Shown here one piece after another: positions 1,531 through 25,049 of a DNA stretch of 26,637 bases. How positions within the stretch are numbered: the stretch's first letter is position 1; each line of letters opens with the position of its first letter. Under the pieces are notes generated by a model. The model did no database searches. It saw only the letters and a program-made list of their open reading frames with translations, and was not told the DNA's origin. The position numbers and the translations under genes are program-made. Source of the stretch: a virus; the IMG/VR virus record IMGVR_UViG_3300007513_001461, positions 1-26,637 of that record. The stretch is one strand, 5' to 3'.

Positions 1531-2118
1531 GTGGCGGTATTCACATCAGCTTTAAGGGTGCGTAATTTACTGGGTTTAGCCAGTGGTGTAACTGTTTACG
1601 ACGAGTTGCTCGAGACGCTGGTAGATGTAGCTGACTCTGTGATATTTGATGAAATTAACTTGCCGCTTACTAATGGTGCTAGGGTTGCGACGTATTCGGA
1701 ATCTTTTGATATACATACCGCAGGACAGAAAGATCTAGCAGTCAATTACACACCTCTTGTGAGTGTGGTGGCAATGACGTTTGGTGGCTCGAATGGGTCA
1801 CTTATTGGATCAGATGACTATTATATTACGGATTATGGGCAGGTCCGTTTGATCCCAGATGGTTCATACTATCCAGCAGGTCGTCAAATAGTACATATTA
1901 CATATACTGCCGGTTTTTCTCGTATCCCAAATGACTTGCGACATGCCGCAACACTTATAGCGGTGCATCATTTTAATGAGGGACCACATATAGGTTTTCA
2001 AACTGAAAAATTAGGAACCTATAATTATAAATTAGCGAATCTTGGGCAAGGTATTGGTATGCCTTCTATAGTAAATCGTATTTTGGCAAAATATAAGCGA
2101 GTATTTGCGCGACCGTAG
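1531..2118 (+). CDS. Head-tail connector adaptor, gp6-like
   Basis: A 195-residue protein resembling the head-tail adaptor family (HK97 gp6 / SPP1 gp15 type), which binds beneath the portal ring and extends the DNA channel. It begins with a short helical N-terminus (LRVRNLLGLASGVTVYDELLETLVDVADSVIFDEI). A beta region follows with the family's usual 'YTPLVSVVAMTFGG... DYYITDYGQVRLIP' pattern. After it comes VHITYTAGFSRIPNDLRHAATLIAVHHFNE, typical of the family's C-terminal helices. The start is GTG 1531, two bases after the previous stop, with purine-rich sequence upstream. In standard siphovirus order the stopper gene would come next. Here more than 3 kb of other genes intervene. Confidence 0.75.
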   Translation: MAVFTSALRVRNLLGLASGVTVYDELLETLVDVADSVIFDEINLPLTNGARVATYSESFDIHTAGQKDLAVNYTPLVSVVAMTFGGSNGSLIGSDDYYITDYGQVRLIPDGSYYPAGRQIVHITYTAGFSRIPNDLRHAATLIAVHHFNEGPHIGFQTEKLGTYNYKLANLGQGIGMPSIVNRILAKYKRVFARP

Positions 2119-2127
2119 GAGGTTTGC

Positions 2128-2454
2128 ATGTCATTTAGAATGGTAAAAAAAAGAAGGGCTGGCGATAAAGCGGTTGTTCATACGCCGTCTGAAATTGTCA
2201 GATGTGAGTTTGATGGACCACTAATTATTGCAAAGTGTAGCGGTACAAATGCTCGTCGGGCACTGGAAAAGCGTGGGTTTGTTTTGGCACCAGAGGCACC
2301 TAAAAAGTCAAAGCCAAAACCAAAGCCAAAGCCAAAACGTGCGCGTGATGAGGATGGTCAGTTTAAGGGTGATGATCCTTCTACACCGGATGTAGATGAA
2401 GCGTGGAAGCCGCCAAAGAAAAAGTCGGCTAAAAAGCCCACGAAGAAAAAATAA
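2128..2454 (+). CDS. Small protein with Lys/Pro-rich linker and DDPSTPDV motif, unknown
   Basis: A 108-residue protein starting at ATG 2128 after TAGGAGG, which includes the previous stop. Residues 1-58 form a compact region with beta-like strands (EIVRCEFDGPLIIAKCSG). A low-complexity stretch of alternating Lys and Pro follows (KSKPKPKPKPK). Next comes the segment DEDGQFKGDDPSTPDVDEAW, and then a second poly-basic tail rich in KK. From memory, similar 'D.G.FK.DDPSTPDVNEAW' segments occur in many small phage structural-region proteins of unknown role. I cannot confirm this here. It overlaps the next gene by one base (TAATG). Confidence 0.7.
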   Translation: MSFRMVKKRRAGDKAVVHTPSEIVRCEFDGPLIIAKCSGTNARRALEKRGFVLAPEAPKKSKPKPKPKPKRARDEDGQFKGDDPSTPDVDEAWKPPKKKSAKKPTKKK

Positions 2455-2693
2455 TGGCACAACTAGATACAAGCAATCCAAAGACAGTAGTTTCGGGCGT
2501 GCTAGTTGTATTAGCTTTAGTGGGCGGTGGTATTGGTGGCGGTTCTTTAATGGGATATACGATTGAGCCAGAATCAATTACCCAGTTGCGCGTAGATAAG
2601 GCCAAACTAGAAGTCCGGTTAGAGGTAATGGAAGACATTATTCAGGATTGCGAGACACTAGTTAAACATGCAAAACGTGAGGCTGCAAAATGA
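2454..2693 (+). CDS. Small inner-membrane protein with coiled coil, candidate i-spanin
   Basis: A 79-residue protein with one N-terminal membrane segment at about residues 11-36 (VVSGVLVVLALVGGGIGGG). A short charged helical region follows (ITQLRVDKAKLEVRLEVMEDIIQDCETLVKHAKREA) with coiled-coil spacing. It overlaps the lipoprotein-like gene downstream by four bases (ATGA). A membrane-anchored coiled-coil protein paired with an overlapping lipoprotein gene is the classic layout of two-component spanins, which fuse inner and outer membranes at lysis. The protein is short for an i-spanin, the glycine-rich helix is unusual, and the site among head genes is unexpected. A small holin-like or virion membrane protein is the alternative. 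Confidence 0.6.
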   Translation: MAQLDTSNPKTVVSGVLVVLALVGGGIGGGSLMGYTIEPESITQLRVDKAKLEVRLEVMEDIIQDCETLVKHAKREAAK

Positions 2694-3019
2694 GGGTGCC
2701 ATTAATAACTAAATTTGGTGGTGTTTTTATAGTTTTTGGTTTTGGGTTGCTATGTATTTCAGCGTTTTCTGGTTGTGATAACCAGCAGTCACATGCCAGC
2801 GAGCCGGTCTTGGAGGTCGAGGAGGACCAACAGGATGATAGTTATGGCATGGAGCAAATGACTGATTTAGAGCGTCGAATCCAACAGGTGCAGCAAAACG
2901 AATTACCAAAAGCGGCAATTAAGCAGACACCAAGAGAGATTGAGCTAGAGGCGGAATTGTCAGAATGTAAGAGTAAATTAAGTATTTTGATGTACTCCAA
3001 TTCGGATAATCCTAAATAA
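2690..3019 (+). CDS. Putative lipoprotein, candidate o-spanin partner
   Basis: A 109-residue protein with a Lys at position 8 followed by a hydrophobic stretch (FGGVFIVFGFGLLCISAFSG), then Cys29. This is a plausible lipoprotein signal with a relaxed lipobox (F-S-G-C, Phe at -3 instead of Leu). The predicted mature part is acidic (EPVLEVEEDQQDDSYG) and then helical with charged repeats (LERRIQQVQQNELPK, then EIELEAELSECKSKL). The gene overlaps its upstream neighbour by four bases, so translation is probably coupled. Overlap, membrane partner and lipobox support an outer-membrane spanin subunit, but spanin outer subunits are usually Pro-rich and this one is not. A moron lipoprotein for superinfection exclusion is another option. 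Confidence 0.6.
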   Translation: MRVPLITKFGGVFIVFGFGLLCISAFSGCDNQQSHASEPVLEVEEDQQDDSYGMEQMTDLERRIQQVQQNELPKAAIKQTPREIELEAELSECKSKLSILMYSNSDNPK

Positions 3020-3089: not shown

Positions 3090-4100
3090 GTGCGAGTATT
3101 GATTACTGGTGGAGCTGGGTTTATAGGTCATCACTTAATTCATCACATATTAAAACGTACAGATTGGGAAATAGTTTCATTAGATAGGCTGGATACATCG
3201 GGTACGCTTGGTCGTTTGGCCGAGGTTTTAGATTGTAATAAAGAGCAGTTGGTTCAGGATTGGCGAAGTAGGCTTCGGGTTGTGTGGCATGACTTAAAGG
3301 CTCCTGTCAACGATTATACGGCGGAGAAGATAGGTAAAATCGATTATGTGTTCCATCTGGCGGCGGGTTCTCATGTAGATAGAAGCATCGAGAATCCTAT
3401 GGAATTTGTAATGGATAATGTTGTTGGTACTTGCAATATTTTAGATTTTGCACGAAATCATTTATCCGATAGTCTCAAGTTGTTTCTTTATTTTAGTACA
3501 GATGAAGTATTTGGAACGGCCCCAGAGGGAGTCTTTTATAAAGAGGATGACCGTTATAAAAGTGGTAATCCATATTCGGCGACGAAGGCGGGCGCGGAAG
3601 AGTTGGCAATCGCATACGAGAATACTTACGGGATGCCAATTGTTGTTACCCATACAATGAATGTGTTTGGTAAAAGGCAGCACCCAGAGAAGTTTATTCC
3701 ACTAGTAATCAAGAGGGTTCGGGATGGAGAGAAGATCTATATACATTCCAATTCAGAGTGTACCAAAGCAGGATCTAGACATTATATCAGTGCAGACGAT
3801 GTGGCTGATGCAGTTCTATTTCTTGTAGATAATTTCAAGGTTGGCGAGAAATATAATATTGTTGGTAGACGAGAAACCGATAATTTAGAACTTTGCCAGA
3901 TCATTGCTGATATTATGAATGGAGAGTTAATCTACGAAATGGTAGATTTTCATTCGTCGCGACCGGGGCATGACTTAGGGTATGCTTTATGTGGCAATAA
4001 GATGCGAGAGTTGGGATGGGAACCAAGCAAGTCTCTCAATGATAGGTTGAGAGAAGTGATTGAGTGGACGTTAGAAAACAAACAGTGGCTAATGCAATGA
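3090..4100 (+). CDS. NAD-dependent nucleotide-sugar 4,6-dehydratase, RmlB-like
   Basis: A 336-residue short-chain dehydrogenase/reductase of the extended type, close in pattern to dTDP-glucose 4,6-dehydratase. That enzyme converts dTDP-glucose to dTDP-4-keto-6-deoxyglucose. Visible motifs are the Rossmann NAD-binding loop GGAGFIG (7-13), HLAAGSHVDRSIENP (89-103), and STDEVFG (136-142) with the Thr-Asp-Glu catalytic set. The YSATK segment gives Tyr162 and Lys166, and the C-terminal RPGHDLGYAL segment is typical of RmlB. Length matches the family. The start is GTG 3090 with SD AGGAGGG. It overlaps the next gene by ATGA. No RmlA, RmlC or RmlD is in the window, so the phage would draw on host sugar nucleotides or host later steps. 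The exact substrate (dTDP-, UDP- or GDP-sugar) cannot be fixed from sequence alone. Confidence 0.85.
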   Translation: MRVLITGGAGFIGHHLIHHILKRTDWEIVSLDRLDTSGTLGRLAEVLDCNKEQLVQDWRSRLRVVWHDLKAPVNDYTAEKIGKIDYVFHLAAGSHVDRSIENPMEFVMDNVVGTCNILDFARNHLSDSLKLFLYFSTDEVFGTAPEGVFYKEDDRYKSGNPYSATKAGAEELAIAYENTYGMPIVVTHTMNVFGKRQHPEKFIPLVIKRVRDGEKIYIHSNSECTKAGSRHYISADDVADAVLFLVDNFKVGEKYNIVGRRETDNLELCQIIADIMNGELIYEMVDFHSSRPGHDLGYALCGNKMRELGWEPSKSLNDRLREVIEWTLENKQWLMQ

Positions 4101-4825
4101 AAAAGAACGTTATATCAATCATTGGTGATCATTACGCGCAAGGGCCACGAGATTTGTGTGGTCTTAATAACCGATTATTCATAGAGCTATCAGAGCTTGA
4201 TCCTTCTACATGCTGGTCGGTATTAAGTCATGGTTCTCTTGGTGGAATTAAATCTGTTGTAAATAGCACAGCAGATGCCTTTGCAGACATGTTTTCTTAT
4301 GAGGCAGACCGGTATACTGCAATTATTTGGGTTGGCGTAGGTGAGTCGAAGAGTGGCGGTATCCCATTAGATGCGTGGGCGGGGATGCTGGACCATTTGA
4401 TCTGCATGGTGTATGCGGCAGATGTAGATCCGATCCTTATTCTTCCGGTGGTGCCGCCTCAAGAGTATGCAGATAAGAATTTAAGAAAATGGTGCAGGAG
4501 GGCACACAAGCTGGCAATTGAAGTTGCAAACAAAAGAGAAGTTAGAACTTTAGATTTGCCTCTTGGCCCAGATTCATTTGTAGACCTATATGCATTAAAA
4601 GCACGGACATACCAACAAATTGCAACAGAGTTGGGTCGTAGTTTTTTTGTTGGTTCTAAAAAACAACATTCTACACCAAGACTAGTTAGTGAGCCGGAAG
4701 TTATTTATAAGCATAAAAGTGCAAAGCCAGCCCCAACAAAACGAGTAGAGACTAACAATTCTGAAAATAGTGTTGCTATAATGCAGCCAGATAGAGTTCG
4801 AAGCAAAAGGAGTGCTCATGGATAG
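4097..4825 (+). CDS. SGNH-hydrolase-like protein with degenerate active site
   Basis: A 242-residue protein whose pattern suggests the SGNH/GDSL hydrolase fold, which in active members removes acyl groups from sugars or lipids. The segments would be block I NVISIIGDHYAQG, block II HGSLGGIKSVVN, block III IIWVGVGES, a strand LILPVVPP, and the final helix DSFVDLYALKARTYQQIATELG. The usual Ser of GDS is His here, the Asn of GxND is not visible, and the DxxH pair is replaced by DLYA. It would therefore be inactive, use other chemistry, or be a binding domain. The last 60 residues are a disordered basic tail. The start is ATG 4097, coupled to the dehydratase by ATGA. A GTG at 4064 lies deep in that gene and is unlikely. 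Fold assignment is tentative. Confidence 0.6.
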   Translation: MKKNVISIIGDHYAQGPRDLCGLNNRLFIELSELDPSTCWSVLSHGSLGGIKSVVNSTADAFADMFSYEADRYTAIIWVGVGESKSGGIPLDAWAGMLDHLICMVYAADVDPILILPVVPPQEYADKNLRKWCRRAHKLAIEVANKREVRTLDLPLGPDSFVDLYALKARTYQQIATELGRSFFVGSKKQHSTPRLVSEPEVIYKHKSAKPAPTKRVETNNSENSVAIMQPDRVRSKRSAHG

Positions 4826-5375
4826 GCCAACAATTATTGGTATAACAGACGGACCCATGCATCCAGATGCGGAATTAGTGCGTAAGGTTGATTTTGTAAT
4901 CTTTGGTGATTGGCCAAGTACGTTTGAGCCTCATAGAGTTGGTGAAGTTGCACCAAAGAATTGGCGACACTCACCATTGGTGGTCGCCAAAAAGAGCGTT
5001 GGTTCAAGACGATTGATTGGTGTGCATGTTTTCTGGGGGCCAGATAGTAAAGAATTATCTGAACTTATTTTGTCGGGCATTGCTGGCAGTACATCAGTAG
5101 TAGTCATTACGGGCAGTGGTGATGGTTCTGCGACTAAAGCAGCTAAAAAAATTGGAGCACTGGTTGAAATTGTTTCATCTGGTAGGCTTGTGATGGTGGC
5201 GTGTTTAGATGGGAAAGCCCAAATCAGTTATGAAAATGGCACGAAACCAAAGAAGGCAGCAAAATCCAAAACAAAAGCAAAGCCGCCCGTAAAAGAAATA
5301 GAGGTAGTAAAAAAAGATAATGAAACTGTTGTAGTCGTTGAGACTAAAGCAAAGACAGAAAATGATAATAAGTAG
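4818..5375 (+). CDS. Unknown protein with alpha/beta core and Lys-rich tail
   Basis: A 185-residue protein I do not recognise. It starts at ATG 4818 after AAAAGGAG, overlapping the previous gene by eight bases. An in-frame GTG at 4812 is part of the SD region and less likely. Residues 1-135 alternate strands and helices (TIIGITDGPMHPDAELVRKVDFVIFGDWP, then GSTSVVVITGSGDGSATKAAKKIGALVEIV), which gives a Rossmann-like impression. The rest is a low-complexity tail rich in Lys, Glu and Val, likely disordered. A similar basic tail occurs on the product of 2128-2454. Position inside the sugar-gene block suggests a linked role, but nothing in the sequence defines a reaction. Confidence 0.65.
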   Translation: MDRPTIIGITDGPMHPDAELVRKVDFVIFGDWPSTFEPHRVGEVAPKNWRHSPLVVAKKSVGSRRLIGVHVFWGPDSKELSELILSGIAGSTSVVVITGSGDGSATKAAKKIGALVEIVSSGRLVMVACLDGKAQISYENGTKPKKAAKSKTKAKPPVKEIEVVKKDNETVVVVETKAKTENDNK

Positions 5376-5997
5376 TGCACATCGAACATTTACAGTAAAG
5401 CGAATGACGGCGTTTGTTCTAGATGCGTCAGCAGCAGCAGCTACGATGAGTTTGACTAGACAACCTGTACGGGAATCAATGTTGCAGATTCGAGTGTATG
5501 GTGGTTCGGATAATACAGGTACGGTAACACTAGATGGTTTAGATAAGGATGGTTTAGCCATTAGTGAAACCATTACATTTGCTACTGGTGGTTATAAGCA
5601 GTCAGTTAATTTATATGTTTCAATTAATTCTGATGGGATTACGACAACGGGTTTAGCTGATGAGGCTACCAAACCAACAATAGAGATCAAGAGCTTGGGT
5701 CCAGACGGAAGCCTTCAAAATAAGCCATACAATGTAGTTGCAGGGTGGCCTATGTATATGGATAGGAGTAGGCCATCTAGGGCGGTTTGGAAGGGTGAGA
5801 GGTCGGGTTCTGCGGAAGAGGAGCCTGTGTTTGTTATGATCCAATGGTCGGACACATGGGCACCCCGAGAAGGTGATGTTCTGGTTGACGATTATAGTAG
5901 TGAACAGTTTGTAGTAACTGGTACACCAATGTTAGAAGGCTACAACCGCGTAAGCCATTATGAAGCGTGGGCGCAAAGGCGTCAGGGTTCAGTTTAA
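5362..5997 (+). CDS. Beta-rich virion protein with head-closure (stopper)-like C-terminus
   Basis: A 211-residue protein. Residues about 35-120 form a beta-sandwich-like domain. Its TVTLDGLDKDGLAISETITF segment resembles Ig-like or decoration domains of phage structural proteins. The C-terminal region, from VFVMIQWSDTWAPREGDVLVDD through FVVTGTPMLEGYNRVSHYEAWAQRR, resembles the small head-tail stopper family (SPP1 gp16 / HK97 gp7 type). In that family a 'GD.V..d...y.V.G.P' core and a final strand close the channel. This fits its place between adaptor and gp10-like genes. The start is uncertain: ATG 5362 overlaps the previous gene by 14 bases with only a weak SD, and ATG 5404 is an alternative. 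The fusion of the two parts is an inference. Confidence 0.6.
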   Translation: MIISSAHRTFTVKRMTAFVLDASAAAATMSLTRQPVRESMLQIRVYGGSDNTGTVTLDGLDKDGLAISETITFATGGYKQSVNLYVSINSDGITTTGLADEATKPTIEIKSLGPDGSLQNKPYNVVAGWPMYMDRSRPSRAVWKGERSGSAEEEPVFVMIQWSDTWAPREGDVLVDDYSSEQFVVTGTPMLEGYNRVSHYEAWAQRRQGSV

Positions 5998-6030
5998 TAA
6001 ATTAATGTAGCTTTACGCCTTGGAGGTGAC

Positions 6031-8913
6031 ATGCTGCTCAAAAGTGAAGAGATCGTAGATGACGCTAATCATGATTATTTGATTGTTGTTCCAACAGTTG
6101 GTGATCCAGATGTTCTAATACCAACATTCCATAGTCTAGTTAAAAACATGCCATCTAGGACAAAGTTAATGTTGTCCTTTAACCCAGTTGATGCTGAAAA
6201 GTCGAAGAGGGTTCTTTCGGCGTTGCTTGGTGCAAAGTTTCCCGCAACTTGTTCACTTGATTATTGTTGGGAAGACAGTCCAATAGGGTTTGGTGCTGCT
6301 GTAAATGCAGGTTTGCTTAATTCTATCAAAAAAGATGGACTTCAAAAGTACATAATCGTTTTTAACGATGATGCTCGTGCTACAGATGGATGGGTAGAGG
6401 GTTTAGTTTCAGCATTAGAAACGACGCATGTGAATTTTGCCACAGAGCCACCGAATCCGGTAACTAACCGCAGGAAGGATCGTCCTGTGGAGGTATATGG
6501 GAAGATCGGAATGGTCGGCCCGGTAAGTGATAATGTTGCGGGTGTGCAGCGAGTGGGTCCAACAAGTGAAGTGAATAAAATTGGTTATGATTTATATGCT
6601 CATAATCATAAGCATAATAAAGATAATACTGGACAACGGATAACAACGCAGTTTCTATCTGGATTTGTGCTGTGTATGAAGCATGATTTTGTTAAAGACT
6701 TAATGCTGGATGATGGTACAAATTGGATTGGTTTATTTGATGAAGAGAACTTCCCGGTAGGTGGCTATGAAGACAATGATCTTTGTGTGCGAGCCGACAT
6801 AGCTGGTTGGAGACTTGCTATTGCATGGGATGTATTTGTTGGGCATTTGGGTCATCAGAGTTTTGATAAATACTTTCAAGACCATATGCGTGGTATGAAG
6901 AATAGATTGAACTTCTATAATAAGTGGAGTGATCATGTACGCAGTGAAGATAAGTTGGTGGCCAACTATCGCGTAAAGATGACATCCATTAACGATTTGC
7001 ATGTATGGAAAACTTCGTTGATCCGACATGCGGAATTAGTAGATGGTTTTGCGGTATTAATGACCAACAATCCTCTTGAGATAATGGATGGTAATGATTG
7101 GGAAGATTGTAAGGGCTTGCTTATCCCTAGAGATCAACAACTACTTAAAGATTGCAGTGGTGTCGATGCTAATGGAGTAGCCAAGGCGGTTCAGTCATGG
7201 ATTTTCGATCATACACGAGATTCGCGCAAACCAGAGGTGGTTGTAGATGTTTGGACCCAAGAGTTCAATGAGAGAGACGAGAGGAATCTTGTAATTGAAA
7301 TGGCCGAAGATATGGGTGCAACGTGGATTATTTCCGTAGACCATGACGAGATGCTAGAGGACCGTATCCGGCGACGGCATTTAGATAAGATGATGAACCA
7401 TCCTAACCCAATGGTAGACAGTTGGGAATTGGGTTGGATCAATCACTGGGACACTGCCCGTACAGCGCGTATAGACCTGCCGTGGGGCGATGGCGCGACC
7501 TATACGGGTGGAATGAGGGGTTGTAGGTTCTGGCGCGTTAAGAGGGGCTATAAGGCTCGTATTACTGGTGGCACAGCAAATGGTTTGCACTGTGGTAATT
7601 GCCCAGATTCTTCAAATATGAGTCGTAGGCACTCGGCACTACGGTTTAGGCATTTTGGTTATGTCCGTGCAGTTGATCGTGTGAGAAAATTTCACGATTA
7701 TCAAAATAAAGACCCTAACCCAGACTCTAGTTTGATTGGGGGATCTGGCTATGGGCATTTGATTAATGAAGAGAAGATGTTGATGCGTCCTTTTATGCCT
7801 CAAAATGGTATTGGGATGCATATGCTTGTGTATGAAGGTGAATCTCCAGATGATGTTGCTCGGTGGTTAGACGATCTTCATGGGTTAATGGATCGTATTG
7901 TCCTAGTTTGGACAGGCAAATGGGACGATGAGCATCAGATCAACTTGGATGCAGAAGTGTGGCCAGACACGGGGCCATCGCGGGAACTTGCGACATTCGC
8001 GGCGATGCATGAGGTCGAGTGGGTACATAAGCCACTAGATAAGAATATCTCTGCGGCTAGAAGCGCGGGGATTCAGTATTTGCATCAGTATCGAAATGAG
8101 GGTCTAGGTTGGGCGATATTTTTTGATCCAGACGAAATGTTTGAGTTTACCAGCAAAGCACTTGCGTCAATACGGGAGTTAGCGTTGTGTACGGACACAT
8201 GGGGCTGGTTGTTTACGTTCTTAAACCCAATGAAGGGTGGTGGATCATCAAAGTCTGAATCAGTACGCATGAGCAAGCTGGACCGTGATGGCATTATGCG
8301 AATGAATGGCCGTGTTCACGAGAGTTTTAATGATGCGGTTAAACTAATACAGGGTCGAGGAGAGCACCCAAACTTTCGTTATGCGCCATTTAATACGTTG
8401 AATATGGGCTTATATAAAGACAGAGACGAGCTTTATACAAAGCTAAAAAGTTATCACGAAATGTGCGTATTGGATTTGGAGGACAACCCATTTAATCCCG
8501 GTGCGTGGGTAACTCTTGGCTTGCAATATAATAATGATGGCAACCCAGAGTTGGCAAAAGCATGTTTTGAACGTGGCGTAATGTGCGCGGGAACAAGTTA
8601 TCTGCCATTTAGAGAACTTGGTTTGTATCATTTGCGTATAGCGAAAGCTCTTATGCTGGAAGTTATAAAATATACAACTGATGGACATGAGGTGCATAAG
8701 GTTGCAGAGAAGCCTCTTGATTTTCTTCAAATGGTTGCTCCCGGTCAGCCATACGTTGGAACAGGTAAGAATATTATTGGTGATCAACCGTTACCAGATT
8801 TTCCATTTGACCAATTAATTGAAAACGAGGAAACTAATACCGATAGTGATAATGGAACAAGTAGTTCTATGGTATCTTTAGCTAAAGGTAGTCCTTCACA
8901 AATTCATACTTGA
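6031..8913 (+). CDS. Large multi-domain glycosyltransferase with TPR
   Basis: A 960-residue protein starting at ATG 6031 after TTGGAGGTGAC. Domain 1 (about 15-285) is a GT-A family 2-type glycosyltransferase: IVVPTVGDPDVL opening strand, FNDDARATDGW (111-121) metal/nucleotide-sugar motif, and GYEDNDLCVRADIAGW (245-260), the family's ED acceptor motif, with His272. Domain 2 (about 330-590) has a second acidic motif, ISVDHDEMLED (434-444), and several Cys (CGNC 521-524). Domain 3 (about 595-800) has NISAARSAGIQYL and FFDPDEMFEF (697-706), typical of family 2 enzymes linked to TPRs. A TPR-like helix pair follows (NPGAWVTLGLQYNNDGNPELAKACFERGV, 822-850) and then an acidic Ser/Thr-rich tail. It likely transfers sugars to protein or glycan acceptors in the cytoplasm. 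Three catalytic centres in one chain is my reading; domain 1 is the firmest. Confidence 0.8.
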   Translation: MLLKSEEIVDDANHDYLIVVPTVGDPDVLIPTFHSLVKNMPSRTKLMLSFNPVDAEKSKRVLSALLGAKFPATCSLDYCWEDSPIGFGAAVNAGLLNSIKKDGLQKYIIVFNDDARATDGWVEGLVSALETTHVNFATEPPNPVTNRRKDRPVEVYGKIGMVGPVSDNVAGVQRVGPTSEVNKIGYDLYAHNHKHNKDNTGQRITTQFLSGFVLCMKHDFVKDLMLDDGTNWIGLFDEENFPVGGYEDNDLCVRADIAGWRLAIAWDVFVGHLGHQSFDKYFQDHMRGMKNRLNFYNKWSDHVRSEDKLVANYRVKMTSINDLHVWKTSLIRHAELVDGFAVLMTNNPLEIMDGNDWEDCKGLLIPRDQQLLKDCSGVDANGVAKAVQSWIFDHTRDSRKPEVVVDVWTQEFNERDERNLVIEMAEDMGATWIISVDHDEMLEDRIRRRHLDKMMNHPNPMVDSWELGWINHWDTARTARIDLPWGDGATYTGGMRGCRFWRVKRGYKARITGGTANGLHCGNCPDSSNMSRRHSALRFRHFGYVRAVDRVRKFHDYQNKDPNPDSSLIGGSGYGHLINEEKMLMRPFMPQNGIGMHMLVYEGESPDDVARWLDDLHGLMDRIVLVWTGKWDDEHQINLDAEVWPDTGPSRELATFAAMHEVEWVHKPLDKNISAARSAGIQYLHQYRNEGLGWAIFFDPDEMFEFTSKALASIRELALCTDTWGWLFTFLNPMKGGGSSKSESVRMSKLDRDGIMRMNGRVHESFNDAVKLIQGRGEHPNFRYAPFNTLNMGLYKDRDELYTKLKSYHEMCVLDLEDNPFNPGAWVTLGLQYNNDGNPELAKACFERGVMCAGTSYLPFRELGLYHLRIAKALMLEVIKYTTDGHEVHKVAEKPLDFLQMVAPGQPYVGTGKNIIGDQPLPDFPFDQLIENEETNTDSDNGTSSSMVSLAKGSPSQIHT

Positions 8914-8920
8914 GGTAACT

Positions 8921-9445
8921 ATGGCAAAAGCAGCGGTAATGCAGGTTGATGCGGGTTCTCTCCGTATGACCGTCATGCGAATTGGTGGCATGAAGTCAAA
9001 AATACAAAAGGCTGCATTGAAGTCTTTAGATGCGGCTGGTCAAATTTTGCATACAGAGATTGTGAAAAATGCTTCGTATACAGATCACAGTCTAAAAAGG
9101 CTAGAGGCGTTAGACCACCCATATGCAAAACGACATGGAAGTATACAAATCCATACTCGTAAGCCATATGTTGTACATAAGCAGGGAACCCGTAAGCATA
9201 GCAAAAATCTTCATAAAGGAATTAAACAACGATTGATAAAGACTAAACGTGAATACCACGTTTATGTATTACCCAGTCACCCGTATGCGAAATATGTTAT
9301 TCAGGGCACCAAAACCGTGATGCTTGGACGTGATTTTCTTTGGCTCACAATGAATGAACGTGGTGTGAAAAAGAAAATGATGAAGGCGGTTGTTGGTGTA
9401 CTTGGTAAAGATATGAGAATGAAAGCAGTCGTTCGATTTGATTAA
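8921..9445 (+). CDS. HK97 gp10-like neck/tail completion protein
   Basis: A 174-residue basic protein with the features of the HK97 gp10 family found between stopper and tail-terminator genes. An early helical part (KIQKAALKSLDAAGQILHTEIVKNA) is followed by a central beta part with HIGH-type contacts (RKPYVVHKQGTRKH, then YHVYVLPSHPYAKYVIQGT). The end, FLWLTMNERGVKKKMMKAVV, matches the family's 'pF...a......' C-terminal helix. It starts at ATG 8921. The SD GAGGT includes the stop codon of the glycosyltransferase gene. Family members act in head-tail joining, but their detailed role is poorly defined. Confidence 0.72.
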   Translation: MAKAAVMQVDAGSLRMTVMRIGGMKSKIQKAALKSLDAAGQILHTEIVKNASYTDHSLKRLEALDHPYAKRHGSIQIHTRKPYVVHKQGTRKHSKNLHKGIKQRLIKTKREYHVYVLPSHPYAKYVIQGTKTVMLGRDFLWLTMNERGVKKKMMKAVVGVLGKDMRMKAVVRFD

Positions 9446-9456
9446 GGTGGTTTAAG

Positions 9457-9870
9457 TTGGCAAATTCACTTACAAATATTGTACAAGTCCTGCGGTCACT
9501 GCTTATTTCTGATTCGGTTGTGTCTGGTTTTGTGGGTGATAATATACATACGGCCCACATCTATGATGCTGATGCTGGGACAGTCCCGATGCCATGCCTG
9601 ATTTTAGAACTTGAATCAGGGTTTGGTATGTATAACCGAACAGTGCAATTTCAGGATTACGATTTGTATGCTTATTCAAAGATAAGCCAAGCCGAAGCGA
9701 TGCAGGTTTATAATGCTGCTTATGATGCACTACAGGCGTGCCGTTTATCGTTAGATGGTGTTAGTACCAAGGGTCTGATAACAGAACGTAGTAGGCCAGT
9801 TAGTGGCTATAATGACCGATTAATGTCATGGTGGGTCCGTGGATCTTGGCATGTAGCCGCAGCAGGATAA
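9457..9870 (+). CDS. Tail terminator protein
   Basis: A 137-residue protein with the size and pattern of siphovirus tail terminator/completion proteins, which cap the tail tube and join it to the head. It opens with a helix (SLTNIVQVLRSLLISDSVVSGFVGDNIHTAHI). The family-like strand MPCLILELESG and the DYDLYAYSKISQAEAMQVYNAAYDAL strand-helix follow, with a final strand MSWWVRGSWHVAAAG. The start appears to be TTG 9457, six bases after AAGGTGG (9444-9450). No ATG or GTG is well placed. Neighbours (gp10-like upstream, major tail protein downstream) support the call. Confidence 0.75.
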   Translation: MANSLTNIVQVLRSLLISDSVVSGFVGDNIHTAHIYDADAGTVPMPCLILELESGFGMYNRTVQFQDYDLYAYSKISQAEAMQVYNAAYDALQACRLSLDGVSTKGLITERSRPVSGYNDRLMSWWVRGSWHVAAAG

Positions 9871-10542: not shown

Positions 10543-11094
10543 ATGCCTTTGAATATACCTACTGGTAGTACTACCGATATTAGCTTTGGACCGGCAATTT
10601 TATTTCTTGGGATTGCAGGTACAACGCCAACTGTCGATGTGGGATTTATCAGTGAAGATGGCGTATCTTTTGAAATTTCAAATGAAACAAAAGATATTAT
10701 GCAGGGAAACCCAAAACTAATTGAGTATACGTTTAGCCAACAACAAGGTGTGATGGTTAGCTTGTCCTCTATTGAATGGGATTTTGATAACTTTACCAGA
10801 GCGATTGGTGCTGGTGTGACCGCTGCCCCTGCGGGCGCGGAGACATTCTCTTATGGTGGTGACCCCATTGTAACCACAGTTGCGATCCATGTTCAGCATC
10901 AGATGGCTGTTTCTGGCAATACCCTGAATTGTTATGTATGGAAGGCTGCATCAGAAGCCGGATATGCTATTGCTATGGGTGCTGATGAGCATACATTTGA
11001 ATACAAATGGAAGGCACAGCGGTCCACTACGGACTGGGCTGGTGATCCGCTGGCATCTAATGAGCAGCTTGTCAAAATTGAGCGAGTGACCTGA
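10543..11094 (+). CDS. Major tail (tube) protein
   Basis: A 183-residue beta-rich protein predicted to form the stacked rings of the tail tube. It starts at ATG 10543 after one of the best SDs in the window, AAGGAGGG (10531-10538), as expected for a highly made protein. The opening (GSTTDISFGPAILFLGIAGTTPTVDVGFISEDGVSFEISNETKDI) is typical of siphovirus tube proteins, where the start of the tube domain is followed by a 'lGfv..dgv.i..e.e...i' pattern. The IVTTVAIHVQHQMA strand and HTFEYKWKAQRS segment also fit. Immediate context (terminator upstream, chaperone with frameshift and tape measure downstream) is diagnostic. Confidence 0.85.
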   Translation: MPLNIPTGSTTDISFGPAILFLGIAGTTPTVDVGFISEDGVSFEISNETKDIMQGNPKLIEYTFSQQQGVMVSLSSIEWDFDNFTRAIGAGVTAAPAGAETFSYGGDPIVTTVAIHVQHQMAVSGNTLNCYVWKAASEAGYAIAMGADEHTFEYKWKAQRSTTDWAGDPLASNEQLVKIERVT

Positions 11095-16725: not shown

Positions 16726-19700
16726 ATGTCAGGTGGGCCTAATAGTTATATTATTTTTCCAGATCCTTGTCTGACTGGTAGTAAAAATATTGATTCAATC
16801 GAACCCGTAGCGGCAGGTGAATATGTTGGGCCTACAGATTCCGAAAATGATAATCGAGGAAGTCTTGTTGCTACTATGCAGGGAAAATATGTCGAACCCG
16901 GCTTCATTACATTAACTGATGAGGATAAGAAGTTTGATTTTCGTGTTCAGGTTGCTGGTGGGATTAATGGTGGAACATGGGCACATAGGCCAAATAAAAC
17001 AAGCACTGTTGGTACGATAGTATCCGATAAAGTAGGATCAAGCGAGATAACTGTAGGGACTCAATTGGTGGTAAATGATGTAGAGACTCCGCTTACTAGG
17101 TATAAAGATCCCTACACCCCTCTGCTTGTTCAGCCAGCCACTTCCGCTTTGGCAAAAGCGATTGCGATTAATGAAAACACTGAACTTCACGGAGTAACCG
17201 CAACCGGTAATGCAGCCGAAATTGTGTTTGATGTTCGCATAGCCGGTGGTACGTTGGACAATGGTGAACTAGTTATCAATGATGTGGACTTACTGAATGG
17301 CGCGGGTCCAGTTGCATACGTTGTTAATGATGGTACGAGCACGTTGCGTAATGCTATTAATGCGCATACTGGAACACATGGCATTACCGCTAGTACAGTT
17401 TCCACTGGTTCAACGGGTACAGATCGGATTCTTGTGTTGACTGGAACCGATGTCAACCTAGACACTGGGGCAAGTTTAGGGTTGTTTGTAGATGCGGCGG
17501 CGGCAGCGGGATTAGGGTGGACGGGGGCAACAGCTACTATTCATAGAGCTGGTATTACACTTTCTAGTAATACGCATATCGACCTACGACCATCTAGTGA
17601 TATTTCTGGTGTTTTAGGGATCAATTCTGAAATAATCTTTCGATCCCAGATAGCGGGTGGAACAATTTTTAGTGGACAGCTTCTTATAAATGACTTTGAT
17701 CTTGTTGGTCCCGGCCCATTTGTATTTACGACGAATGATGGAACTAGTGCGTTGCGTAATGCAATTAACGCACGGACCAGTATACATGGGATCACAGCAT
17801 CACTAGATGGTACTACAAGGTTAAAATTAACGGCAACAAGTGGAAATTTAAGACTATATGTTGATCCAACTATGCATGTCCCGCTTGGATGGGTAGGTGA
17901 TGTAAATAGCTTACATTCCGGTGATGGTTTTGAAGCCAATAAAAATTATTATGGGTACAATGAAGAACGTTATGTCCATTTTTCACACGGGGGGCTGCTT
18001 GCGACTGGCGGGGATGCTGCTTCTGGCGCGTTTATCCCACGGTTAAATCGGGAAGTAATTTATACAGCAGAGGATACAGTTGGCGATGTGGCAACAATCA
18101 ATGTTGCGTATAGAAATATTGATCAGGCTAACGGGGGATGGACCCAAACAACTATTAATTTTAATCGGAAAGACTTTTGGGGTATTGGGTATACATTAGA
18201 TGTATTCAAAGTTTGTGCTATGGGTGATGGCACCCTACGCATGATGAGCAGAACTGATCGCAATGACATTAATATATGGTGGTCGGAAGACGGATTAAAG
18301 TGGGAATTATTATCTGCTGATGTGGCATCTAAATATTTAGATACGTTTCCAATAAACTATGAGTCCGTAAAGATGGATGGTAGTGGCGATTATCTTCGTC
18401 TTGCTTGGATTGATTTGATAGAGGGAACTACCACGAACTATTTTAGAACTATTGTATCTGGTGATGGCGGGGCATCTTGGTTGGAACCAGAGTTAGCCTT
18501 TACACCAGCAATCGTGGAGAATGGCGACAGTATAGATCAGCATGTTTATACTATGGCTGGACTTCGGGATGACTCTGGTACATTTTTATTGCATTGGATG
18601 GATTCCCTACAGCGGCTACAGACTGGGATTGCAACAGGTACAGGTGCATTTGTAAATGCTAATGTGACTAAAGGTACTGGTGTTCCTAGTGCGATGATGA
18701 AAGCACACATTACGTCGGTTCGTGGTCAGGATTATTATTGGTTAATACTTTGTTATTATATTGTGCCGACGCTTGGGCTTGTAGATTGGCATCGTACCGG
18801 TTGGGAATTTGTTTTATTCCGTATAGATCCAAATGCGCCATTGGGCGACTGGTATAGCAATAATTATCTTACTGGGTCGCAGGGAACGATTAGGTTTGTT
18901 CCTTGCTATATGAACCTTATAAACTGCCATAAATATTTATCGTTTTTTGCGGGTGCCATAGATGCGACCGATGATCCATCATTATTCACAGCAGACAACA
19001 GAACGATCTATTTTCGGCTTGGTGGTTGGGACATGTCGCCGATTGCAAATTATACCGATTATAGAGTCGAAAGCACTCCAAATTTGTATTCAGAGTCAGA
19101 TCCTTACCCACTTCCAATTGTGGGATGGCATATACCATTTGGATTAGTGGCTGGTGCTGGCGGTAATGTGTCTCCCGGCACTCCTTGGACAAGAACAGTT
19201 AGTCAGGTAACGAGTAGTTATAATTCGTGGAGACAGCGACTTTCAGATAATACTGGATTTTTCGCACAATCCTATATTAATGAACTTGATGATACTGCGT
19301 GGTCTACTACTGCTCCTTCCGATGCTCAACCAACATGGATGCCAACCACCGACCAGCAGGGCGGGGTTGTTATTGAAGCAGAAGTAAAGACAGAGTATGG
19401 GTATGATAATGTAATGATAAGTTATGATGCAACTATATTTTTTGATGTAAATGCGTCAGATCATACTTCTGGTGTAAGGCAAGCCGTCTACTTACGAGTC
19501 GTTATAGCGAATAATGGCATTGCTTTAATTGATGTAAATGCTGGCCCAACTCCAATAGAGGCATCGTTTATAAACGCAAATATGGCGGTCTTTAATCGTA
19601 TACGGTTAAGTATTGCATCTGTTAATGTTGGTACTTATTTAGCTCCTTCTTTAGAAACCCAAGTAATGTTATCTCTAAAGACCGTTAGCGGATATGATGA

Positions 19701-21159
19701 AGCCGGGATTCGGGAATGGCAACGTGTAGGGCCATTTACAGTAACTGAAACAACGGTAGCTTCAATTATACAAATATTACGTTTTGGACACCTTCCTAAT
19801 AGTCCGGGGGGTACTCCTCATATGGATAGAAGATCAAATTGGAGGTCTATTAATGTATTTAAGTCCGAAGAGCGTGGTGGTAGTGCGGGTAAAATCAAGA
19901 ATAGTGCTTTAAGCCAGTTTCGAGCGTATGATATTGATACCGATTGGCCTCAACATTTGCGGGGTCGCCTGATAACGGGAAACCCAATTAATATGGGGTA
20001 TGCCATTAGTGCTAGATGGGGTGGTGCTTCTGGATTTTCTGGAGACAACTTTAATGGTCTTACAAAATATCAATATGGCGCAGAAAACCTTACCTTGCCA
20101 TCTCCGCGATTACAATATCGATCCAAATTAGACCTGACCCGATCCTCGTCTGATACGTTCAAGGTAGTACTTGTGGCCGACCCAGACAATACAATGACCA
20201 AGTTTAAGTGGAATTGTATTGCTGCATTTAACTCAAATATTGGTAATATTGGAATCCGTGTATCAGAGGATAAGGTGACATGGAACACGGTAGTACCCAC
20301 CCACCAGACATATATTTCTAGAGCCTTTAGTCCCGATATTTTAAGTATGGAGTCACCAAATAAGGTCGTTGTGAGGCTTGGTGGTGGACCGGGCTATATG
20401 CCAGAGAACGCGGAGTGGAACACAAGTGAGGGCAAACCATTTTATGTGAATCTAGGAGGCACTATTGGCTCTCCTCCAACTGTCTTTACTAGAACCGCAA
20501 ATATTGTTGAATGTATACGAATATCAGATACCGAGTATCATCTAATATTAGATACCGATTTTGATATTACGTTGCTTGGCACGTTATCAGCGATCACTGT
20601 ATTTTCAGGTAGATGGGTATATAAAAATGACGGTATACAGAGCAATAGATACATTGAGATTACTGGCGATCGTGACTTGGGAAATGCTACTAATGAAGCG
20701 TTGTCCGTAGGTACTATAATTGTTGGTATTCAGGAATCGCTTGAGGTGCCTCTTGAATGGACCTCCACAAGTAATGAACAGCCAAATGTTACAAATTACA
20801 AAACCAAGGGCGGATTATCTTGGGCATATCCAGAGGGACCACCTCAACGTACAATTACTGGTAGGCTTGTTGGAGATGTGAGTCAGGAGCAGCGAGATAC
20901 GCTACGACAGTTACTTCGAAGCCATACCCAATACGAAACGAGGCCAGTAGTATTAGTGTTAGATGACACAGATGCCACCGCCACGAGGTATGCGCCATAT
21001 GCTGATCCAGATAATGTAATTCTCGGACGTATCACCAGTGGATCACAGTTGGATAATGCCGCGTGGTATCAACAAACAAAATCTAACTCCCCAGCTGCTG
21101 ATATAGATATTTGGAAACAGGCTGGCGATATGGCTATTACGCTTGAGGAAGAAGTGTAA
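16726..21159 (+). CDS. Large tail-tip/fibre-like protein with flagellin-IN-like and Asp-box regions
   Basis: A 1477-residue protein directly after the tape measure, the place of distal-tail and tip proteins. It starts at ATG 16726 with GGGGCGAGG upstream. Residues about 105-395 carry three copies, one short, of a module like the flagellin/hook IN motif: 'elvINdvdl....ndgTStLRNAINA.tgtHGITAS'. Residues about 405-760 look like a sialidase-type beta-propeller with two Asp boxes, SEDGLKW (520-526) and SGDGGASW (578-585). The middle (about 800-1150) is beta-rich and may bind receptor. The last 150 residues (RTITGRLVGDVSQEQRDTLRQLLRS, RPVVLVLDD, ILGRITSGSQ) resemble the beta-sandwich of distal-tail proteins. 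No catalytic sialidase Arg triad could be confirmed, so binding rather than cleavage is possible. It overlaps the next gene by one base. Confidence 0.75.
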   Translation: MSGGPNSYIIFPDPCLTGSKNIDSIEPVAAGEYVGPTDSENDNRGSLVATMQGKYVEPGFITLTDEDKKFDFRVQVAGGINGGTWAHRPNKTSTVGTIVSDKVGSSEITVGTQLVVNDVETPLTRYKDPYTPLLVQPATSALAKAIAINENTELHGVTATGNAAEIVFDVRIAGGTLDNGELVINDVDLLNGAGPVAYVVNDGTSTLRNAINAHTGTHGITASTVSTGSTGTDRILVLTGTDVNLDTGASLGLFVDAAAAAGLGWTGATATIHRAGITLSSNTHIDLRPSSDISGVLGINSEIIFRSQIAGGTIFSGQLLINDFDLVGPGPFVFTTNDGTSALRNAINARTSIHGITASLDGTTRLKLTATSGNLRLYVDPTMHVPLGWVGDVNSLHSGDGFEANKNYYGYNEERYVHFSHGGLLATGGDAASGAFIPRLNREVIYTAEDTVGDVATINVAYRNIDQANGGWTQTTINFNRKDFWGIGYTLDVFKVCAMGDGTLRMMSRTDRNDINIWWSEDGLKWELLSADVASKYLDTFPINYESVKMDGSGDYLRLAWIDLIEGTTTNYFRTIVSGDGGASWLEPELAFTPAIVENGDSIDQHVYTMAGLRDDSGTFLLHWMDSLQRLQTGIATGTGAFVNANVTKGTGVPSAMMKAHITSVRGQDYYWLILCYYIVPTLGLVDWHRTGWEFVLFRIDPNAPLGDWYSNNYLTGSQGTIRFVPCYMNLINCHKYLSFFAGAIDATDDPSLFTADNRTIYFRLGGWDMSPIANYTDYRVESTPNLYSESDPYPLPIVGWHIPFGLVAGAGGNVSPGTPWTRTVSQVTSSYNSWRQRLSDNTGFFAQSYINELDDTAWSTTAPSDAQPTWMPTTDQQGGVVIEAEVKTEYGYDNVMISYDATIFFDVNASDHTSGVRQAVYLRVVIANNGIALIDVNAGPTPIEASFINANMAVFNRIRLSIASVNVGTYLAPSLETQVMLSLKTVSGYDEAGIREWQRVGPFTVTETTVASIIQILRFGHLPNSPGGTPHMDRRSNWRSINVFKSEERGGSAGKIKNSALSQFRAYDIDTDWPQHLRGRLITGNPINMGYAISARWGGASGFSGDNFNGLTKYQYGAENLTLPSPRLQYRSKLDLTRSSSDTFKVVLVADPDNTMTKFKWNCIAAFNSNIGNIGIRVSEDKVTWNTVVPTHQTYISRAFSPDILSMESPNKVVVRLGGGPGYMPENAEWNTSEGKPFYVNLGGTIGSPPTVFTRTANIVECIRISDTEYHLILDTDFDITLLGTLSAITVFSGRWVYKNDGIQSNRYIEITGDRDLGNATNEALSVGTIIVGIQESLEVPLEWTSTSNEQPNVTNYKTKGGLSWAYPEGPPQRTITGRLVGDVSQEQRDTLRQLLRSHTQYETRPVVLVLDDTDATATRYAPYADPDNVILGRITSGSQLDNAAWYQQTKSNSPAADIDIWKQAGDMAITLEEEV
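17038..17910 (+). repeat. Tandem repeats with flagellin-IN-like motif in the tip protein
   Basis: Two long copies (about 17218-17548 and 17623-17910) and one shorter (about 17038-17220) encode the same module. The clearest match is around 17325-17400 against 17733-17810. There, AATGATGG..AC.AG, GTTGCGTAATGC.ATTAA.GC and the following CATGG.AT.AC.GC are nearly identical at the DNA level. This suggests a fairly recent duplication of the later two copies. The short first copy (QLVVNDVETPL, then ALAKAIAINENTELHGVTAT) is more diverged. Confidence 0.7.
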
Positions 21160-23335: not shown

Positions 23336-24124
23336 ATGGCCGCTAAAGATAAAAGAAACTCTGTTAGGCGTGCAGGTAGACCTGCGAATATTAAGAAAGT
23401 TGACGCACCAATCAATCAGTTGAAGGGTGAGCCGGATTTGGCTTATAGGTGCTTTCTCCTTTGGACAATGCAGGAGCCGGGTAGACGCAGTGCGCGTGCT
23501 GCTTCTAGGGCGATCCAAAGATCTGATGGTCTGATGCGTCAGTGGAAAAAACGATGGAGCTGGCAAGCTCGAGTCGATAAAGTTTCATTGCCAGATATGA
23601 CTGCTGCCGCGATTTACCGAGCAAAGTATTATAAAATTTATAAACTGCGCGAGATAGTCGAAGTTGAGGGCAGATTGGCTACTCCATTCCTACCTGATAC
23701 GCCAGTTCCAATGTCTGTCGCAGAGGAAGTGAGTAAGGCGGTAATGCCTGATAAGACCACTGCCGATGAGGAGCGCAGAAAAAAGAAGATTAAGCAACAG
23801 CATCTTCAATTGGTGGATGGTGCTCTTGGGCTTCTTGCTAGGCGTATTGCGGCAGGGGAGATCAGATGCACAATGCGCGACCTTCCAGCACTACTCAAGG
23901 TACGCGATGAGATGACAGACTCAACAGCGGTTGCCAACAATAATACTATTCTTGTAGAGTCTGTACGGGTCCGTCAGGCGAAGCTCCAAGGGACAGATCT
24001 TCTGGAGGCTATGTATGAAGATTCGCAGGAGATAATGGCAATTTTAGGTGCGCTTGTAACAGCCAATCAATTGAAAGATAAGCACTCAATATTAAATGAG
24101 GGTGAGACTATAGCGGCAGAATAA
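23336..24124 (+). CDS. TerS-like DNA-binding protein (candidate terminase small subunit)
   Basis: A 262-residue basic protein. Residues about 44-90 read QEPGRRSARAASRAIQRS, then LMRQWKKRWSWQARVDKVSLPDM. This matches the 'gp.RSy..va..lg.s...i..Wskky.WqeRa.a.d' pattern of phage terminase small subunit N-terminal helix-turn-helix domains, which recognise phage DNA at packaging. The rest is helical: a charged EERRKKKIKQQHLQLVDGAL region, possibly an oligomerisation helix, then RDLPALLKVRDEMTD and an acidic end. The start is one base after the previous stop. In most siphoviruses TerS lies upstream of the portal and capsid, so its position after the tail is unusual. Another DNA-binding role is possible. 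Confidence 0.55.
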   Translation: MAAKDKRNSVRRAGRPANIKKVDAPINQLKGEPDLAYRCFLLWTMQEPGRRSARAASRAIQRSDGLMRQWKKRWSWQARVDKVSLPDMTAAAIYRAKYYKIYKLREIVEVEGRLATPFLPDTPVPMSVAEEVSKAVMPDKTTADEERRKKKIKQQHLQLVDGALGLLARRIAAGEIRCTMRDLPALLKVRDEMTDSTAVANNNTILVESVRVRQAKLQGTDLLEAMYEDSQEIMAILGALVTANQLKDKHSILNEGETIAAE

Positions 24125-24135
24125 AAGGAGTAATC

Positions 24136-24507
24136 ATGGGTATTAGTGATGATATAAGGCGTGAAGTTGAAGAGGTTGCGGTTTCTGCCGTATCAGAATT
24201 AATGGATGATGCGAAGATTGACGAAGAAGAAGCAATCGAAATATTATCCACAACACTTGATGCGCTGGTCCCTTTAAGTATGCTGCTGCCGGGACCACTT
24301 GGTGAGCTGGCTGAAAATGCAGATGATATGGTATTTGATGAAATTGCCAAGGCATTATATAAAGCATTTACTTTAGATCCTGATAAAATCGAAATACGCG
24401 CAAAACGCGCACTGGAAAAAGGCAATACTAAAGTTGCCGCACGGCGGCTTCGGAGAGCTGCTCGAGTCAGAAAACGTCAGGCGTTAAAACATTCTAATTC
24501 TAGGTAA
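24136..24507 (+). CDS. Small helical protein, unknown
   Basis: A 123-residue protein starting at ATG 24136 after AAAAGGAG. It is acidic in the first half (REVEEVAVSAVSELMDDAKIDEEEAIEIL) and strongly basic at the end (AARRLRRAARVRKRQALKHSNSR). A moderately hydrophobic middle (LVPLSMLLPGPLGEL) is too short and Pro-broken to be a clear membrane segment. It precedes the coiled-coil membrane protein gene by 15 bases. A link to lysis is possible from position only. Confidence 0.65.
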   Translation: MGISDDIRREVEEVAVSAVSELMDDAKIDEEEAIEILSTTLDALVPLSMLLPGPLGELAENADDMVFDEIAKALYKAFTLDPDKIEIRAKRALEKGNTKVAARRLRRAARVRKRQALKHSNSR

Positions 24508-24522
24508 CTTGAGGCATACTGG

Positions 24523-24978
24523 GTGAAAGAACTTGAACGCATGATAGTCGATAATTCAAAACGTATCGAAGCACTTGATGGCGATATAACGTCACTTAAA
24601 ACTGATGTTGGAAGCCTAAAGGTTGATATGAGTAAGATTGGTACGACGCTAGAGTTCCAAGAGACACGTTCAAAGGAGCGGTTTGAGGCACTAACTTGTA
24701 CTCAAAATAAGATGATCGACATAATGCGTGATAAAGAAAAACGAGATGAAGAGTATGCGCACGAAGCCCGGCAGTATAGGCAACGCCGAGAAGAGTTGGA
24801 AGCAAAAGCTGCTATTGAAAGGCAGAAGTGGTTTAGATCCTTGATAACACCACAGACAATTATGATTATGCTGTTTATAGTAGCCGCCTTTCTGGGCATT
24901 AGACTAACAGATATGCATGCCGTGTCTGAATATATCAGTGGTGAAGCCGATAACCAAAAAGTTCAGCCAAAACCCTAG
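24523..24978 (+). CDS. Coiled-coil, C-terminal membrane-anchored protein (XhlA/holin-like)
   Basis: A 151-residue protein starting at GTG 24523, eight bases after GAGG (24511-24514). Residues 1-45 show clear heptads (MIVDNSKRIEALDGDITSLKTDVGSLKVDM). A long charged helix extends to about 104. One membrane segment lies at about 110-128 (TIMIMLFIVAAFLGI), followed by a short tail. This plan (N-terminal coiled coil, single C-terminal anchor) resembles haemolysin XhlA-like phage proteins that work with holins in lysis, but it is longer. It is the last gene before the new promoter, so it may end the late operon. A lysozyme or endolysin gene is not seen in the window. Confidence 0.6.
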   Translation: MKELERMIVDNSKRIEALDGDITSLKTDVGSLKVDMSKIGTTLEFQETRSKERFEALTCTQNKMIDIMRDKEKRDEEYAHEARQYRQRREELEAKAAIERQKWFRSLITPQTIMIMLFIVAAFLGIRLTDMHAVSEYISGEADNQKVQPKP

Positions 24979-24992
24979 TAATTTAAGGGGCG

Positions 24993-25021
24993 TTGTTGTT
25001 TTTAGGTGTGCCTGATATAGT
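24993..25021 (+). promoter_or_regulatory. Sigma70-type promoter before the winged-helix gene
   Basis: TTGTTG (24993-24998) and TATAGT (25016-25021) are separated by exactly 17 bases. The -10 matches consensus at five of six positions and the -35 at three or four. It is in a gene-free gap (24979-25049) and points toward the gene at 25050. That placement suggests a new transcription unit separate from the late operon. Confidence 0.5.
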
Positions 25022-25049
25022 GAGAAAATAGATTTGGGGTCAGCAGAGC

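Follow-up and report, generated by a model that had tools for sequence, protein, structure and literature searches.

A glycosyltransferase (GT) gene belongs to the core of the neck region in a diverse clade of uncultured phages, and the 960-aa protein that it encodes probably attaches sugars to proteins; exchangeable sugar-synthesis genes lie beside it. These features suggest that phages of the clade decorate their own particles with sugars, and it seems reasonably probable that the GT and its neighbors form a module within the neck operon that glycosylates virion proteins. The block of sugar-modification genes that the original prediction placed among the head-to-tail joining genes is confirmed, and the interpretation given to it is partly supported by the results.

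Organization of the neck operon

The window, meaning the whole stretch of DNA that was analyzed, is a 26.6-kb IMG/VR viral contig with a siphovirus late operon on its plus strand, including genes for an SU10-like capsid protein, an adaptor, neck proteins, a tube protein, and a 1558-aa tape measure protein. All five open reading frames predicted between the adaptor and the gp10-like gene are present there, in place and on the plus strand, and three small genes also sit between the adaptor and the dehydratase. Gene boundaries from the adaptor to gp10 mostly overlap or lie close together, and there are two insertion points, one between adaptor and stopper (the slot) and one between stopper and gp10. 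The relevant features are as follows.

1531-2118, plus strand: head-tail adaptor (phrog_442, E 4.9e-17), kept in relatives; left border of the slot
2128-3019, plus strand: three small genes (2128-2454, Lys-rich; 2454-2693; 2690-3019) with no firm family
3090-4100, plus strand: RmlB-like dTDP-glucose 4,6-dehydratase (TIGR01181, PDB 1g1a, phrog_540; TGGAGFIG, STDEVFG, and YSATK motifs)
4097-4825, plus strand: SGNH/GDSL-fold protein, by matches of its positional relatives to Lipase_GDSL_2
4818-5375, plus strand: protein with a charged tail and no family assignment; same-slot relatives in contig G002 and, more weakly, in L051
5362-5997, plus strand: stopper-like protein with an extra N-terminal beta domain, conserved between the adaptor or SDR gene and the GT in relatives
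6031-8913, plus strand: the 960-aa GT, read as a triple GT-A plus TPR protein; core gene of the clade
6076-6939, plus strand: GT domain 1, COG1216-like GT2 (Glyco_tranf_2_3, 2.6e-15; NDD, EDND, and HLGHQSF motifs)
6955-7710, plus strand: GT domain 2 (DHDE, LHCGN, and RHFGY motifs; weak Glyco_tranf_2_4 match in relatives; AF2 model)
7807-8403, plus strand: GT domain 3, SunS/GmaR-like (DPDE and GRVHE motifs; catalytic residues invariant)
8422-8736, plus strand: TPR-like helical tail of the GT (profile and Pfam TPR matches; AF2 helices at residues 798-902)
8921-9445, plus strand: gp10-like neck/tail completion protein (phrog_5, 4.8e-6; weak PF04883 match); right border
9457-9870, plus strand: tail completion gp17-like protein (PF11367, 5.5e-6)
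10543-11094, plus strand: tail tube protein (phrog_2175, phrog_117), which served as a GT-independent query within the limits given below

The dehydratase starts with a GTG codon just downstream of AGGAGG. The SGNH-like frame (4064-4825) likely starts at the ATG at 4097, which overlaps the dehydratase stop codon (ATGA). For the next frame (4812-5375) the ATG at 4818, accompanied by AAGGAG, is the likelier start, and the stopper-like frame (5338-5997) likely begins at 5362. A promoter scan gave fewer matches than shuffled sequences did, and its result was not used.

Searches for a sequence-family profile match to the stopper-like protein, and for a PDB match to the stopper profile, were both empty. 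Its AF2 model (pLDDT 82) gives weak Foldseek matches (E 0.02-0.1) that include neck proteins of T1, Bxb1, T4, and Sf14. Position and conservation agree with a stopper, and the link by fold is a weak one.

The GT gene is a constant member of the neck region

A scan that used the capsid protein, and that was therefore independent of the GT, already yielded GT relatives in four contigs (G002, G004, G008, and G010). Scanning viral contigs with a GT alignment added L043-L046 and L049/L050, and the same alignment found no match in a genome scan. A search of the viral contigs with one GT sequence in place of an alignment was empty, its peptide patterns being too exact, whereas the capsid, GT-alignment, and tube-alignment scans succeeded. 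The capsid also retrieved two MAG contigs in the genome scan, one of which (Myxococcales, L051) carries the block; a host assignment made by MAG binning alone is not trusted here.

A further survey relied on the tube protein alone as the query, which is not wholly independent of the GT because the GT had led to some of the contigs that supplied the tube seeds. It recovered 36 viral contigs, and in 35 of these the GT immediately precedes gp10 and is encoded on the same strand. The remaining contig (L079) extends no more than 1.1 kb beyond the tube gene on the upstream side, too short to reach the GT position, and was left out of the count of informative loci. The GT is thus genetically tied to structural genes in 35/35 informative contigs, a recurrence that places its position beyond chance. 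Of the dehydratase and multidomain GT that the original prediction proposed to look for between the adaptor and gp10-like genes, the GT recurs and the dehydratase varies by lineage.

Removal of near-duplicates left 27 lineages (below 85% identity), some of which have GTs only 22-28% identical to that of the window. None of the 27 deviates at any of five catalytic residues of domain 3 (D699, D701, E702, H763, and E764). Furthermore, pairwise divergence of the GT correlates with that of the adaptor (r 0.87, p 0.0002), tube (r 0.72, p 0.004), stopper (r 0.71, p 0.01), and capsid (r 0.57, p 0.04), which indicates that the GT has been inherited together with the structural genes. The predicted tie between the GT and late structural genes therefore holds. 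The accompanying generalization, that GT cargo usually lies outside the connector genes, is not a fixed rule, because Corndog-type phages carry GTs between the portal and protease genes (PMC4351075).

No GT was found in two loci that are exceptions or outgroups. On one 36-kb fragment (G006) the stopper is present and is followed by unrelated genes on the opposite strand, and the other contig (L052) shares 31% capsid and 28% tube identity. Among 50,697 phage records, no capsid or tube match of the clade was found. The window GT likewise had no match in cultured phages, and the GT of G010 matched them only in domain-sized fragments, among them SPbeta SunS.

Domain architecture of the GT

The AF2 model of the GT has a mean pLDDT of 79.5 and a pTM of 0.80. 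From this model and the sequence motifs, we interpret the protein as a series of three GT-A domains with TPR-like helices after them; its sequence matches Glyco_tranf_2_3 (E 2.6e-15) and holds further GT-A domains. The best fold matches are to two-domain chondroitin polymerase, the SunS/ThuS peptide S-glycosyltransferases (Foldseek E about 1e-10), and polypeptide GalNAc-transferases. Full-length TM-scores are low because the templates cover single domains. No transmembrane segment was found in the GT (maximum KD19 1.04).

The relationship of domain 3 to peptide-modifying enzymes emerges from homologs, the profile, and the fold; direct sequence matches of the window domain itself are weak. A profile of nine GT sequences picked up PDB entries for GmaR and for TPR proteins. 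Domain 3 of the G010 homolog matches the SunS family TIGR04195 at 1.4e-15, and that of the L083 homolog matches both GmaR (4.7e-22) and SunS (3.3e-17). The best TIGR04195 score, 57 bits for G010, lies below the curated cutoff of 350 bits, so the domain is related to SunS rather than a SunS equivalog. The D-x-D-E and H-E signature of SunS/GmaR-type GT2-TPR enzymes is found in the window GT as DPDE (residues 699-702) and GRVHE (760-764), followed by the helices at 798-902.

A variable slot for accessory genes

The original prediction treated the genes as one block, a view that requires revision because the GT is constant, and the dehydratase, SGNH-like, and methyltransferase genes belong to a variable slot. 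Among the members for which it was measured, the adaptor-stopper gap is between 2 and 3670 nt long. An RmlB-like dehydratase occupies the slot in the window, L007, L008, L045, and others, and a GalE-like epimerase is found there in G002, L043, L044, L053, L057, and L071. L044 additionally has a UDP-glucose dehydrogenase, methyltransferases occur in L045, L007, and L008, and some lineages have a slot without any sugar gene. These swapped accessory genes may individually be moron cargo.

The window dehydratase matches TIGR01181 (E 1.4e-76) with 257.7 bits, short of the equivalog cutoff of 365, and also PDB RmlB (1g1a; 2.6e-55) and phrog_540 (8e-100); the NAD motif and the catalytic motifs S-T-D-E and Y-x-x-x-K are present. 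Relatives in L007/L008 are 61% identical, and the closest phage relatives (61-64%) are cyanophage nucleotide-sugar epimerases and proteins of unannotated marine viruses. The SGNH-like protein of the window has no family match itself, and its positional relatives in G002 and L044 match Lipase_GDSL_2 (2.8e-7 and 5e-12, respectively). Its earlier assignment therefore stands with respect to fold, whereas the catalytic triad appears to be missing. Because the catalytic Ser (block I) is replaced in most aligned members and the catalytic His (block V) is missing in all of them, the protein is probably a fold relative that is inactive as a hydrolase.

The slot contents might also be related to the state of the GT. 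One clade (L046/L005/L051; support 100/100) has degenerate motifs in domains 1 and 2, and L072/L075 lack domain 1. An SDR gene occupies the slot in none of these five lineages, versus 15 of the 22 with intact domain 1 (Fisher p 0.0098, a value that ignores kinship); the other seven have intact domain 1 and no SDR in view. This link between sugar-nucleotide genes and the integrity of domains 1-2 is only suggestive because it reflects about two independent losses and partial contigs.

Possible functions of the GT

In the favored reading, the late structural proteins and a soluble 960-aa enzyme would be produced together. Domain 3, for which the TPR tail would serve as a substrate clamp, would attach the first sugar to an acceptor polypeptide. 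The acceptor would most likely be a component of the virion, perhaps from the neck or tube, because the gene has a fixed place among neck genes and the enzyme has peptide-GT character. Domains 2 and 1 would extend the glycan with further sugars in most lineages, and some donor sugars might be supplied or finished by products of the neighboring slot genes. For the window, the donor could be a 4-keto-6-deoxyhexose made by the RmlB-like dehydratase and completed by host enzymes. The resulting glycan would be lineage-specific and added during assembly.

A more specific version is put forward tentatively: A single neck-encoded enzyme might work as an assembly line on a virion protein, carrying out both the priming and the extension of a complete lineage-specific glycan, with donor genes exchanged as adjacent cassettes. 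If this version is true, virion glycosylation goes back to the ancestor of a large uncultured phage clade and is universal in it, instead of being a rare mycobacteriophage oddity. A search by Ser/Thr content revealed no obvious Ser/Thr-rich tail in the window capsid and tube proteins. In G002, a 680-aa fiber-like protein with 26% Ser+Thr is encoded exactly between the stopper and the GT and is a candidate acceptor there.

The original prediction offered two outcomes, glycosylation of the capsid or tail and alteration of the host surface, and the first is favored because the GT resembles polypeptide glycosyltransferases. There is a small chance that the block instead remodels a host surface polysaccharide (O-antigen or capsule) late in infection, as serotype-converting phages do. 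Domain 1 and the RmlB, GalE, and UDP-glucose dehydrogenase genes are typical of such pathways, and Foldseek also matches the GT to heparosan polymerase in addition to chondroitin polymerase. However, Gtr-type systems use a membrane-embedded or lipid-carrier-linked GT, whereas the window GT has no transmembrane segment, and no flippase or lipid-carrier transferase was recognized in the slot. Moreover, it is the peptide-GT-like domain that is invariant, and one would not expect genes for surface modification to be confined between neck genes. A modest chance is given to the enzyme acting late on a host protein, such as a pilus or flagellar subunit, or on a non-virion phage protein, thereby altering adsorption or blocking superinfection. 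The solved relatives nearest to it modify flagellin (GmaR) and a bacteriocin peptide (SunS), neither of which is a phage structural protein, but the fixed neck position and the co-divergence suit a virion substrate better.

Two further explanations are very improbable. Phage GTs hypermodify DNA in T4, and PMC12619734 cites viral enzymes of this kind; the GT could likewise place sugar on modified pyrimidines. Against this, no thymidylate-synthase-like gene was found in eight relatives, including contigs of 75 and 86 kb, and a peptide-GT-like domain 3 encoded among neck genes is not what such a role predicts. Equally doubtful is that the block is moron cargo of the usual sort that landed among the structural genes at random. 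The exchange of slot contents between lineages resembles such cargo, but the GT keeps its position in every informative member, even at 22-28% identity, and its active site is invariant, which contradicts this explanation for the GT.

Relationship to known systems

Calling the locus an undescribed system was too strong, since the kind of system is already known from mycobacteriophage virion glycans and the Corndog GT block. In the literature found, virion glycosylation is presented as demonstrated in mycobacteriophages, and glycans are reported on the C termini of capsid and tube proteins of Che8, Corndog, and others (Freeman et al. 2023). Insofar as these sources describe them, those systems resemble the proposed one in having phage-encoded GTs with virion proteins as the proposed target. 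They differ in using several small GTs, encoded at the genome 3' end or in the portal-protease interval, rather than one triple-domain GT-TPR protein encoded between stopper and gp10. Also, the window clade has no cultured relatives in the collection searched. In Corndog-type phages, an O-methyltransferase, two GTs, and a GlcNAc-transferase lie between portal and protease and have been proposed to modify the capsid (PMC4351075). This cluster O block likewise combines sugar and methyl modification genes inside a structural operon, at another position and, from their descriptions, with other enzymes.

No description of the neck position, the three-domain enzyme, or its clade-wide universality was found in the literature searched. 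If the favored reading is correct, a widespread uncultured clade has an obligate, position-locked protein glycosyltransferase, and virion glycosylation is much more common than thought. The natural domain losses of the enzyme could then be used to separate priming from extending domains.

Among individual enzymes, SunS/ThuS provide the best named peptide-GT fold match; like the window GT, they combine a GT-A domain bearing DxDE-like and HE motifs with a helical C-terminal region. SunS, which is encoded in SPbeta and modifies a glycocin, has a single GT domain and acts on a bacteriocin, whereas the window GT is encoded among structural genes and has two additional GT domains. GmaR, the Listeria flagellin O-GlcNAc transferase, glycosylates the subunit of a protein filament (PMC9638930) and similarly has a GT domain followed by TPR; it carries linker and antirepressor domains and lacks counterparts of GT domains 1-2. 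The top viral fold match of the GT (BFVD A0A6J5LLV3, 2.9e-23) is an uncultured-phage multidomain GT-A protein that also has tandem GT-A folds.

Serine- and threonine-rich proteins

Within the window, local Ser/Thr content peaks in a large tail protein. A Ser/Thr-rich protein is also encoded in G002, a related contig, and its profile matches to baseplate and tail fibre proteins are weak.

Window 16726-21159: tail protein of 1477 aa that carries Flagellin_IN motifs (PF07196, 2.6e-9)
L028:4012-6051 (G002 24012-26054): 680-aa repetitive, Ser/Thr-rich fibre-like protein, an insertion between the stopper and glycosyltransferase genes

Rearrangements among the neck genes and their neighbors

In two related contigs, L046 and L051, the stopper-like gene is inverted within the neck operon.

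L046:1497-2132: stopper-like gene, strand opposite to the adjoining glycosyltransferase gene
L051:13946-14587: stopper-like gene, strand opposite to the adjoining glycosyltransferase gene

When the window protein (8921-9445) and its L046 counterpart (4873-5391) are taken as references, the gp10-like neck protein of L005 (6801-7307), a contig of the same clade, is circularly permuted, with its C-terminal half placed ahead of its N-terminal half. On the related fragment G006, genes downstream of the stopper lie on the opposite strand (L032:960-5949) and include one for anti-restriction and one for the repair of alkylated DNA, and therefore the late operon seems to be interrupted there.

The gene at 23336-24124, close to the window's right-hand end, has a 50% identical relative in G002 (19797-20603; L027/L028) that is situated between the adaptor and the epimerase, and thus one gene occupies two different locations. 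In the related locus L007, the dehydratase is adjoined by a 189-aa protein (16996-17562) for which Pfam and PHROG searches returned zero matches; it begins TGTGRSGTSAL and, when read by eye, looks like a P-loop sulfotransferase.

Directly after the capsid gene of the window, a stem-loop of 19 pairs followed by a T-rich stretch (1152-1195) forms a terminator-like element.
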